From the NCBI RefSeq assembly GCF_013267195.1, contig NZ_CP053941.1, positions 62,001 through 126,000 of the forward strand: a stretch of 64,000 nt of DNA, read 5' to 3'. Below the pieces are notes generated by a model, which worked only from the letters and a program-made list of their open reading frames with translations, did not search any database and had not been told where the DNA came from. Both the position numbers and the translations under genes were made by a program. Position 1 is the stretch's first letter, and each line of letters begins with the position of its first letter. The stretch is from Halorubrum salinarum (GTDB taxonomy: Archaea > Halobacteriota > Halobacteria > Halobacteriales > Haloferacaceae). Positions 12,584 through 58,896 of the stretch are shown piece by piece.

Positions 12584-12683
12584 ACCGACCCGTGGACCGG
12601 CCGGGGAATAAAGCGCGGCGGTCCGCGGGCACCGGCCCGGTCGGGATCGTGAGCGGTCGGTGACGCAGCGGCCGAGACGAGAA

Positions 12684-14024
12684 TCAGTCGTCGAGTTCCT
12701 CTGCGACGGAGTCCGGAATCGCGTCCGGGCCTCCGGCCCCGGCCTCGGTGAGGTCCGCCTCGTCCGGGGCCTCCGCCTGCGCGGTGAACTCGGGGTCGAA
12801 CAACTGGAGGGCGGTCCGGATCGTCTCCCAGTCGTCCTCGCCGGCGGCGTCCCGGAGCGACCGGGTGGGGGCGGCGAGCAGCTGGCCGACGAGCGCGTCC
12901 GCCAGGTCCTCGACCGTCTCGCGCTGCTCGTCGCTCAGGTCGCCCTGCGCCTCCAGCTTCGACATCGCGCGGTCGAGCTCGCGCGCCTTCACCTGGTCCG
13001 CGCCGGCGTACATCGCCGAGATGGCGTCGTCGGCGCGCTTGCGCTTGTACGCCTCCAGGATGCGGTCGAGCTCGTCGTCGATGATCGACTCGACCTTCCG
13101 GGCCTCCTCGGCGCGGCTCTCCCGGGTCCGCCGGGTGACGTCCTCGAGGTCGTCGATGTCGTAGACGGTGACGCCCTCGCGGGCGCCGGCCGCGGGGTCG
13201 ACGTCGCGGGGCTGCGCGATGTCGATACAGACGACGCGACCGGCGCCGTCGACGTAGGAGGGGTGGACGACGAGGTCGGGGCTCCCGGTCGCGGTGACGA
13301 CGAGGTCGGCCTCGGGGATCACCGCGGGGAGGTCGGCGAGCGACACCGCCTCCGCCGGGGTGTCGACCTCCTCGACGACGAACTCCGCGTGGGGCACGGT
13401 GCGGTTCGCGACGACGATCTCGGAGACGGCGGTGTCGTCGAGGGTCCGGGCCGCGAGCGTCCCCATCTCGCCGGCGCCGACGACGACGGCCGTCCCGTCG
13501 GTGAGGTCGATCTCGCCCGCCGCCAGCCGGACGGCCGCGGAGCCGAGCGAGACGACGCCCTCGTTGATCTCGGTCTCCGTCCGCGCGCGCTCGCCGACGT
13601 GGAGCGCCTTCGTCACGGCGTCTTTGAGTACCGGCCCGATGCCGCCCGCCGACTTCGACTCCTCGTAGGCCTCGCGCAGCTGGCCGATGATCTGGTCTTC
13701 GCCGAGCACGAGCGACTCCAGCCCGGAGGCGACGCGCATCAGGTGTTCCAGGCTCTCCTCGTGGTCGAGGCGGCGGACCGCCCCGGCGCGCACGTCGGGC
13801 GCGAACGTCGACAGCGCCGTCGCCCCGTCGACGGTCCGGTCGGTGACGACGTACGCCTCCGAGCGGTTACACGTCTGCACCGCGAACGCCTCTTCGACTC
13901 CCTCGCGTGCGAGCAGGTCCGAGACGGTCGCGCGGACGCCGTCGCCGCCGGCGGCCTCGATCTCGTCGACGGTCGCGTCGGCGTGGGCGACGCTCACACC
14001 GGCGATCGCACCCGTCTCTCTCAT
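12684..14024 (-). CDS. hemA: Glutamyl-tRNA reductase
   Basis: 446 residues from ATG at 14024 (MRETGAIAGVSV). It makes glutamate-1-semialdehyde, the first committed tetrapyrrole precursor. The catalytic cysteine motif AVQTCNRSEAY is near residue 55; the NADPH domain has VVVGAGEMGTLAARTL and the helical dimerisation domain follows, ending in an acidic tail. Its start overlaps the stop of the sirC-like gene by four bases, making it the last gene of an ahbAB-sirC-hemA operon. Confidence 0.95.
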   Translation of the reverse strand: MRETGAIAGVSVAHADATVDEIEAAGGDGVRATVSDLLAREGVEEAFAVQTCNRSEAYVVTDRTVDGATALSTFAPDVRAGAVRRLDHEESLEHLMRVASGLESLVLGEDQIIGQLREAYEESKSAGGIGPVLKDAVTKALHVGERARTETEINEGVVSLGSAAVRLAAGEIDLTDGTAVVVGAGEMGTLAARTLDDTAVSEIVVANRTVPHAEFVVEEVDTPAEAVSLADLPAVIPEADLVVTATGSPDLVVHPSYVDGAGRVVCIDIAQPRDVDPAAGAREGVTVYDIDDLEDVTRRTRESRAEEARKVESIIDDELDRILEAYKRKRADDAISAMYAGADQVKARELDRAMSKLEAQGDLSDEQRETVEDLADALVGQLLAAPTRSLRDAAGEDDWETIRTALQLFDPEFTAQAEAPDEADLTEAGAGGPDAIPDSVAEELDD

Positions 14025-25285: not shown

Positions 25286-25312
25286 TGGGCCAGCGACGGC
25301 GCCCGGGCGGGC

Positions 25313-26257
25313 TCAGCCGAACAGCCCCTTGATCTTGTCGACGACCGATTCGTCCTCGGCGGCCTCCTCGGCATCCTTCCGCTGCTGTTCGCGCAGCTCG
25401 CGGAGCTTCGCGGCCTGGTCGTCGGTCCCCTGGCCGCTGTCGGTCTTCACGTCGCCGCCCTGGAGCCCCTTCAGCTCCGAGACCGCGTCGTTGACCGCGC
25501 CGGAGGTCGTCCGCGTCTCGGTCGCGGAGCCCGCCAGCTTCTCGGCGTCGACGTCCGCGTCGTCGACCGCGCTGGTGTTCAGTTCGAGCCGGCGCGTCTC
25601 GGAGCGCTCGACGCCGCCCCACGTCAGCTCCGCGTCTTCCAGCTCGCGCTCGATGTCGGCGCGGACCGACTCCTCGGTGACGGCCTCGCCGTCGCCGCCG
25701 GCCGCGTCCGACCCCGACCCGCCGCCCGCGTCCGCGGCGCCGCTCCCGGCCTCGGACGCGCCGCTCCCGACCGCGCCGCCCGCGGCGCGCTCGACGCGGT
25801 GGGCGACCAAGGCGCCGCCCGTCGCGCCGATGACCGCGACCAGCCCGAGGGTGTAGCCCGCGACGATCTGCGCGCTGTAGTCGGGGTTGGCGACGACGTT
25901 CCAATTGCGCGGGTACGCCCAGGTGAACGCGGCGGTGCCGACGAGGGTGATCGCGACGCCGACGCCCGCGAGGTACAGCATTCGGCGGTCGACCGGGAGG
26001 AGGACGACGATGCCGAACAGCAGGGCGGGGAGCCCGGCCGCGGCGGCGACGGCCGCGACCTCGCGGACCGCGTACGTCGAGAGCGCGGTCGGGTCGAGCG
26101 TCGCGCTGTAGAGGAACACGACGACCCCGATCACCCCGAGGGCGATTCCGGCGGAGAACAGCCCGAACCCCGCGTACACGTCGATCGTCCGGTCCGGGTC
26201 GCCGACGTATCGGCGGTAGTACTCGATGAGGACGTTCTCTGCGTCCGCTTCGCTCAT
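25313..26257 (-). CDS. Haloarchaeal membrane protein (DUF7139-like) with cytoplasmic tail
   Basis: 314 residues. After a short cytosolic start with YRRYVGDPDRTIDVY, four or five hydrophobic segments occupy residues 30-165. An Ala/Gly/Ser-rich linker leads to a soluble acidic tail containing ATETRTTSGAVNDAVSEL and a closing VVDKIKGLFG amphipathic helix. No transport or catalytic motif is visible. I associate it with a haloarchaeal permease-like group called DUF7139, unverified. The ATETRT motif is shared with the 98-residue protein at 27363-27659. Confidence 0.65.
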   Translation of the reverse strand: MSEADAENVLIEYYRRYVGDPDRTIDVYAGFGLFSAGIALGVIGVVVFLYSATLDPTALSTYAVREVAAVAAAAGLPALLFGIVVLLPVDRRMLYLAGVGVAITLVGTAAFTWAYPRNWNVVANPDYSAQIVAGYTLGLVAVIGATGGALVAHRVERAAGGAVGSGASEAGSGAADAGGGSGSDAAGGDGEAVTEESVRADIERELEDAELTWGGVERSETRRLELNTSAVDDADVDAEKLAGSATETRTTSGAVNDAVSELKGLQGGDVKTDSGQGTDDQAAKLRELREQQRKDAEEAAEDESVVDKIKGLFG

Positions 26258-32973: not shown

Positions 32974-33047
32974 GCGCGGCGATACGCGGCCGCGTCCGTA
33001 AACGCTGCCGATACGACCCGAATCGATCCGAGATCAACTGATCCGAT

Positions 33048-33352
33048 GCGGTGGCGCGTGCCTGCGAGGCCGCGAAGCGGCCGAGTAGCACGCGCGAGGG
33101 AGTCAGTCGCCGGAGCGAAGCGACGGCGACTGACGAGGCTGGGGAGGTGTGAGGTGCTGTGCCGTCGCGGTCGGGTGGGACTCAAAGGGGCAGCCGCGAG
33201 GGCGACGGCGCGCGACGTAAGGACCGCAAGGAGCGAGCAGCGCGAGCGACTGAGGACCGCAACGAGCGCACCGAGCCCTCGCGGCTGGGGCTTTGGAAGT
33301 GTTCATCGCACACTCGTTGATCGCGTATCGCCGAGCGGCTGGGGCTTTTGCG
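33048..33352 (+). repeat. Dispersed non-coding repeat, copy A
   Basis: This roughly 305-base segment matches, in reverse orientation, 58530-58837. Shared blocks in order include GCGGTGGCGCGTGCCTGCGA, AGCACGCGCGAGGGAGTC, GAGCGAAGCGACGGCGAC, GACGAGGCTGGGGAGG, AGGGGCAG and CTGGGGCTTTGGA, with more divergent sequence between. Both copies end with a second GGGxCTTT block about 45-50 bases after the first. No supported ORF is inside. The whole gap from 32974 to 33467 holds only this repeat and the sod terminator. Confidence 0.8.
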
Positions 33353-33422
33353 GTGCTTGTCCCGGCTGTTTTCCAAGCAGCCGCGGCACGGACAGGAGTC
33401 ACTATTAGTGTAGCGTACTGCG

Positions 33423-58529: not shown

Positions 58530-58837
58530 ATGCCTCCAAAGACCCAGCTACTCGGCGAGACGCGGCCGCTGCTGCCGAGGAGACCTCCAAAGCCCCAGTC
58601 GCGAGGAGCCCGTACGCTCGCTGCGCTCCTCACTCGGTCGCTACCGCTCTCTCGTTCCGGTGCTTGCGTCGCCTACGGGCTCCTCTCGACTGCCCCTTCG
58701 AGTCCCGCCCCGCACGGCACCGCACCTCACGCCTCCCCAGCCTCGTCGGTCGCCGTCGCTTCGCTCGGCGACCGACTCCCTCGCGCGTGCTGTCTCGCGA
58801 CCGCCGGAGGCGGCCGCTCGCAGGCACGCGCCACCGC
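58530..58837 (-). repeat. Dispersed non-coding repeat, copy B (inverted)
   Basis: The reverse complement of this segment aligns with copy A at 33048-33352 over its full length. Matching blocks appear in the same order: GCGGTGGCGCGTGCCTGCGA at 58837 downward, AGCACGCGCGAGGGAGTC, GAGCGAAGCGACGGCGAC, GACGAGGCTGGGGAGG, AGGGGCAGT, CTGGGGCTTTGGAGG and a final CTGGGTCTTTGGAGG. The gap from 58358 to 58928 holds this repeat and the gshA promoter and no supported gene. Confidence 0.8.
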
Positions 58838-58896
58838 GACGGCTCGTGCTGGTGTGGCCGCTCGCGACACCTGGCCTCCGTTTCGGGTTCCAATCG

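Follow-up and report, generated by a model that had tools for sequence, protein, structure and literature searches.

The window, i.e., the whole stretch of 64,000 nucleotides from Halorubrum salinarum that was analysed, covers C1:62001-126000 of a 3.34 Mb genome in three contigs, and contains two copies of a non-coding repeat in opposite orientation. Copy 1 (33048-33350, + strand) has sod and a DUF5827 gene as neighbours, and copy 2 (58538-58840, - strand) a DoxX-like gene and the gene for glutamate-cysteine ligase (GCS2). When positions 33031-33400 were compared with the window by blastn, the second copy was found at 58845-58538 on the minus strand with 244 of 317 positions identical (77%; E 7e-59), the two copies aligning over 317 columns; the next-best match of the same query had an E value of 0.066. 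The alignment is continuous and not the scatter of short matches that a dot plot might have revealed, and chance resemblance of the two copies was therefore rejected. The initial annotation had described a repeat with an inverted partner, a doubled block at one end and no plausible gene in either copy. All of this is borne out: neither copy is a gene, and copy 1 carries the block as CTGGGGCTTTGG at 33285-33296 and again as CTGGGGCTTTT at 33339-33349, the second being part of a further tail unit of ~55 bp that is present in many copies. The repeat was also described as a unit of ~305 bp; the repeat stands, but its extent is better given as a conserved core of ~250 bp (33048-33299) followed by a tail that varies. 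A second sod-like gene is located at C1:190921-191522 and is 96% identical to the sod gene of the window over 602 bp; similar second sod copies are found in several other Halorubrum genomes, which suggests gene conversion between these paralogs.

Anatomy of the element

The core of copy 1 (33048-33299, + strand) comprises three hairpins together with two conserved stretches rich in G, and is bounded by GCGGTGGCGCG and CTGGGGCTTTGG. Hairpin 1 (33054-33095, +) has a constant outer stem, GCGCGUGC/GCACGCGC, and a variable inner stem closed by a GAA triloop at 33074-33076, while hairpin 2 (33102-33134, +) ends in the tip GCGAAGC with a GAA triloop at 33117-33119. Between hairpins 2 and 3 lies the near-invariant sequence GACGAGGCTGGGGAGG-GTGAGG, followed by a G-rich stretch ending in GGGACTCAAAGGGGC. 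The most conserved linear stretch, GACGAGGCTGGGGAGGTGTGAGG (33132-33154, +), is made up of invariant alignment columns and served as a probe, and the class-wide motif GGGTGGGACTCAAAGGGGC is found at 33173-33191 (+). Hairpin 3 (33183-33295, +) has a base formed by the pairing of CAAAG and CTTTG, with a GGG/GGG internal loop, and continues as a long stem that covaries and contains tandem G.A steps. In copy 1 the tail (33296-33349, +) is a unit of ~55 bp ending in the second CTGGGGCTTTT block. The core of copy 2 is located at 58586-58837 (- strand) and its tail, with a second CTGGGTCTTT block, at 58538-58585 (-). More generally, one or more units of ~55 bp are found 3' of the core, each ending in a sequence like TATTTATAAGCGAG, a similar box is found 5' of the core, and in relatives the tail units are tandem repeats with TATTTATAAGCGA.

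Of 84 copies, 32 have a TTTATAA-like box (one mismatch at most) in the left flank and 33 in the right flank, compared to ~2% of shuffled flanks, and the boxes at the two ends stand in direct register. In these 32 of 84 copies the left box is no more than 35 bp away from the left end, and it begins only 11-24 bp before GGTGGCG. Two copies elsewhere (L045:1501-1816 and L047:1501-1798) share an inserted pair of perfect hairpins (~55 bp) within hairpin 3, and other hairpin insertions are present in other copies.

Distribution in the genome and across Halobacteria

A genome-wide self-search, which the initial annotation had recommended, gave at least 48 distinct copies. Those found all lie on the main chromosome C1 (2.94 Mb) and none on C2 or C3, which comprise the other 0.40 Mb. 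The number is a lower bound made up from two genome searches, with the best ~40 scored candidates of each, and a profile hit in a fetched flank. The pair of copies first noticed is thus real, but it represents two of at least 48. Full-length copies are 73-84% identical to the query copies and partial ones up to 86%.

The 47 copies examined sit in intergenic gaps, and 43 of them are free of overlap with ORFs, which were called from a simple GC score by codon position. Such positions would suit a leader or terminator acting in cis on the neighbouring genes. However, the orientation of the 5' and 3' neighbours follows no rule (same/opposite in 15 cases, opposite/opposite in 13, opposite/same in 9, same/same in 9 and no 3' gene called in one; 47 copies), and such a role is for this reason highly improbable. 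The proximity of both window copies to oxidative-stress genes, pointed out in the initial annotation, is not supported as a rule for the family, as the 47 copies are found in gaps with every combination of gene orientation, and the genes enclosed by paired copies include histidine and thiazole biosynthesis besides msrA. Four such pairs on C1 (L008, L014, L022, and L043/L018) are arranged tail to tail, 0.5-1.2 kb apart, with a single gene between them; the enclosed genes are DUF7130 with a rubredoxin-like domain, His_biosynth, MsrA, and Thi4. In named species a copy pair is again found around a Thi4-like gene (L123), and pairs are found around a ferredoxin-like gene (L125, L167). A composite transposon was considered and rejected, because the genes inside the four tail-to-tail pairs look like ordinary housekeeping genes.

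Outside the genome studied, blastn matches were obtained in 28 of 39 genomes, i.e., in 23 of 23 from the genus and 5 of 16 others. Among the 292 Halobacteria genomes searched, which represent 77 genera, the core motif GGGACTSRAAGGGGC was found in 193 genomes and 51 genera, and a reversed-motif control gave two matches in all. All 35 Halorubrum genomes carry it, with 4 to 169 exact occurrences each (some 40-fold range), a count of modules and not of proven full elements. Where loci were fetched with the other conserved stretch, the profile matched 107 of 120 with an E value of 1e-8 or lower; one of the 13 without a hit is a Rhizobium contig that looks like a chance match. The family is not confined to chromosomes, plasmid copies being present in Halobaculum and Haloarcula. 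In phage records no match to the element was found, and although 31 viral contigs contain the short motif, none has the downstream GGGGCTTT partner; an origin from phages or viruses was accordingly rejected. The parts of the PMC literature covered name no such family and gave no match to the sequence strings, and an entry in a supplementary table, under PATE or a repeat number, is possible.

On the Haloarcula megaplasmids (L210, L211, L278, and L279) a related element adjoins a gene annotated as SOSS complex subunit B, which is of the single-strand-binding type, in three of four cases, and the same elements lie next to a stretch that resembles the non-coding portion of the small plasmid pNB101.

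Conserved fold and strand polarity

The core folds into three hairpins. In the 48 copies of the genome 43 pairs in six helices, of which helices 1 and 2 make up hairpin 1 and helices 3-6 hairpin 3, are paired in 98.3% of 2046 cells, compared to 28.6-43.9% when the partners are slid by 1 to 3 columns. Covariance over copies, another analysis that had been proposed, shows changes on both sides in 25 of the 43 pairs (241 cells), a level reached in none of 500 shuffles. An unguided RNAalifold prediction gave 51 pairs, 25 with double changes, and the 8 doubtful ones were left out of the count of 43. As the structure was derived from the same alignment it is favoured over its slid versions, but this alone does not explain the number of compensatory cells. 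The fold extends to other genera, where 8.7 of 9 basal positions of hairpin 3 pair in 30 module instances (partner permutation: mean 5.87, maximum 6.63 in 1000 permutations) and where the letters mostly differ, with 23 distinct 5' arms in 30. The initial annotation was therefore right in its picture of a structured repeat that is dispersed and non-coding and has variable parts between conserved patches; these variable parts are covarying hairpin arms.

The mismatches within the arms reveal a polarity. The arms of each hairpin were aligned with equal scores for all mismatches. Of 123 copies, 88 could be parsed and the 35 unparsed ones were left out; in these 88 copies hairpins 1 and 2 have 42 G.T against 5 A.C, and 368 G.A against 3 C.T. 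A functional duplex would give symmetric mismatches, and it follows that one strand is under selection. In hairpin 3 the polarity is less clean, with 151 A.C plus C.A, which we put down to internal loops. A role as double-stranded protein-binding sites, e.g., in chromosome organisation or repair, would fit the finding that 48 of 48 copies found in the genome are on the main chromosome and that their position is often kept. Covarying arms with single-strand polarity are on the other hand not expected of such sites, nor are motif numbers that differ this widely, and we regard the role as quite improbable.

The tips of the hairpins bear on the question of whether the selected strand is DNA or RNA. 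Among 264 tips of the three hairpins 149 were GNA, 18 GNYA, 1 GNRA, 0 UNCG, and 4 TNC, the complement of GNA; the remainder were 73 other triloops, 2 other tetraloops, and 17 longer loops. Similarly, 39 tips from 28 modules of other genera comprised 19 GNA, 2 TNC, and 0 GNRA. As a control, the genome's own rRNA operon was folded in 300-nt windows; its 150 tips included 0 GNA, 19 GNRA, and 6 of UNCG or CUUG type, and 1237 perfect palindromes outside the elements in named loci gave 13 GNA and 14 TNC. Energy folding yielded GNA hairpins in 54 of 210 cases in real cores compared to 23 of 864 in shuffled cores. According to the relevant passages of a DNA aptamer paper, GNA or GNNA loops with at least two G-C pairs give extraordinarily stable DNA mini-hairpins (PMC4686876). 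Since the tips are mostly GNA triloops, and the rRNA control has none, the loop type, on which the argument rests, suggests that the element folds as single-stranded DNA. The share of G.T among pairs upon RNA folding is lower in cores than in rRNA windows (7.0% vs. 11.1%), a weak difference in the same direction.

Two observations from this part of the analysis count against the DNA reading. The mismatch polarity of hairpin 3 is unclean, as noted above, and DNA energy parameters do not single out the + strand: the folding z was -2.68 for the + strand and -4.59 for the - strand with DNA parameters, and -5.96 and -5.45, respectively, with RNA parameters. Thermodynamic folding used as a test of DNA versus RNA thus gives no preference for DNA.

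The main rival to the DNA reading is a family of structured non-coding RNA genes, transcribed from each copy, in which the fold binds protein or RNA. The strong covariation and the G-U pairs on one strand agree with it, as do the folding z of -5.96 and the TTTATAA box within 35 bp of the left end. A normal archaeal start is situated some 25 bp downstream of the TATA box. As the left box is located 11-24 bp before GGTGGCG, a normal start would however be expected to cut into hairpin 1. The tips are moreover GNA triloops instead of GNRA or UNCG, and the exact motif number ranges from 4 to 169 within one genus. A search of Rfam 15 gave no gathering match at the element and only hits at chance level, and a known RNA family was rejected on this basis. 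Altogether we find an RNA gene family rather unlikely. Of the options put forward initially, i.e., a mobile element, a structured RNA or a protein-binding array, a dispersed element that folds as a single strand is accordingly favoured, and RNA is disfavoured by the DNA-type loops.

Shared sites, mobility and relation to known systems

Many of the sites are common to several species. At the sod site a clear element in the same orientation is present in 12 of 21 Halorubrum sequences, including the window; one further sequence has a weak hit elsewhere, and one of those without the element is incomplete. At the gcs site 10 of 21 sequences carry the element, and in one of the remaining sequences a remnant of an end is still visible. 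In 17 comparisons of both flanks with named loci the element was in the same orientation in 14, in the opposite orientation in one and missing in two, numbers that are biased upwards as the loci were chosen for carrying an element somewhere. Two places in the window itself are empty but occupied in sister species: at 12625-12686 a gap of 61-63 bp corresponds to 417-514 bp with an element in G017, G043, and G042, and at 25300-25313 a gap of 13 bp corresponds to 398-470 bp with an element in G017, G042, and G044. The edges of the empty forms have diverged, so that the lengths are compatible with insertion or loss and exact ends are not readable. The same site can thus be occupied in one species and empty in another, and movement is not frequent, because many sites are common to several species. 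Both the shared sites and the empty sites, which are too unclean to define ends or prove insertion over deletion, count against the DNA reading.

Despite the often shared site and orientation, copies resemble their paralogs more than their orthologs. Orthologous pairs were scored in 11 cases (a twelfth is absent from the scored set), and in all 11 some of the 122 other copies were closer than the ortholog, which ranked 3 to 121. The alignments also show mosaics; at one site, for example, hairpin 3 is nearly identical between species, whereas hairpins 1 and 2 bear no relation to each other's counterparts in either length or sequence. The copies within a genome are thus homogenised. Gene conversion among dispersed copies would be the simplest account of the ortholog ranks and the mosaics as judged from the alignments; insertion recurring at one place would be an alternative. 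The palindromes could also be a mutational by-product, made and perfected by template switching during replication and spread by gene conversion, the folded strand being functionless. Whole hairpin arms are indeed swapped or replaced between orthologous copies and extra perfect hairpins are inserted in some, but template switching yields plain complementary arms and not strand-polar G.A and G.T, and near-invariant unpaired stretches are kept across genera. We therefore think this improbable, if slightly less so than double-stranded binding sites.

The initial annotation had also suggested looking for target-site duplications. In 19 copies with both boxes, whose exact ends are uncertain, the flanks gave no signal of target duplication, the identity of left and right 15-mers being 9.58 within and 9.27 between copies, and no terminal inverted repeats were seen in flank alignments. 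The genome contains four Y1 transposase genes, none of which adjoins a copy. On C1, where two of them lie, the closest of the copies listed is some 28 kb away from one gene and more than 100 kb from the other. The core profile gave no hit at E 10 or better within the four Y1 loci (3.3 kb each), and in nine genomes the number of Y1 genes does not follow the number of motifs. A Y1 transposase as partner was rejected because adjacency, profile match and a link to motif number were all missing. The failure to find a transposase partner, together with a Y1 number unrelated to motif number, is a further point against the DNA reading.

Among known systems the closest are the PATEs (palindrome-associated transposable elements). 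The passages describing them in Haloquadratum and other haloarchaea report palindromes related to IS605-type ends and located near the element ends, and describe elements that lack inverted ends, target duplications and coding capacity, some of the repeats being oppositely oriented at one and the same place (PMC3119063). As far as that description goes, the element studied here is similar in being non-coding, palindromic and present in many copies, in having neither terminal inverted repeats nor target duplication, in carrying hairpins 1 and 3 near its two ends, in having a core (~250 bp) too short for a transposase, and in sometimes being opposite at a shared place. On the same basis it differs in that the core in its entirety forms a single conserved fold of three hairpins and contains linear motifs that are near-invariant, that the core motif occurs in 51 of the 77 genera searched, that copies are 73-86% alike in one genome and have compensatory changes, and that an IS605-type relative was not found at the four Y1 loci of the genome. 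By analogy the element may work like a PATE, but it is not filed as one here because a relation to IS605-type palindromes was not found in a search limited to those four loci.

The likeness to other systems is more partial. REP/BIME palindromes of bacteria are intergenic, occur in many copies, have single-strand polarity and are linked to Y1 enzymes. The present element shares the first three of these properties, but is much longer and multi-hairpin, and unlike REP/RAYT it has no flanking Y1 (RAYT) gene at the four Y1 loci. Single-strand origins of rolling-circle plasmids are non-coding, folded single-stranded DNA of ~200-300 nt and are therefore similar in kind and length, and the Haloarcula megaplasmid element adjoins pNB101-like sequence; in the pNB101 stretch inspected no class-wide motif was seen, however, and the link to rolling-circle origins is indirect. 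With MITEs the element has in common that it is short, non-coding and dispersed, and it differs from them by the lack of terminal inverted repeats and of a target duplication signal, the latter also being missing from some MITEs.

Taken as a whole, we tentatively prefer to see the family as dispersed elements of Halobacteria that lack a transposase and most likely work in the form of a folded single DNA strand, the one reading GCGGTGGCGCG...CTGGGGCTTTGG. It is conceivable that this strand becomes exposed and then folds, that the folded strand is recognised by a protein acting on single-stranded DNA (a nuclease of the HUH type working in trans, e.g., a Y1 transposase or a rolling-circle Rep), and that the recognising enzyme spreads the element. 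Ectopic gene conversion between copies may subsequently replace modules in place, so that the site would be kept and the sequence overwritten. It is also possible, and still more tentative, that these are class-wide haloarchaeal elements selected to fold as single-stranded DNA, i.e., a multi-hairpin, recognised device for transposition, priming or recombination that is homogenised in place. Compensatory covariation is usually taken as a sign of functional RNA. The fold of the element covaries strongly, yet its loops are of the stable DNA mini-hairpin type, and the rRNA of the same genome provides a clean control. If the DNA reading is correct, loop type could help to separate selection on RNA from selection on single-stranded DNA by sequence alone, haloarchaea would be the source of a large natural family of folded DNA, and many unannotated intergenic repeats across the class would be accounted for.

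At four loci from other genera (L223, L240, L244, and L245) two modules stand back to back with their motifs ~40-50 bp apart.
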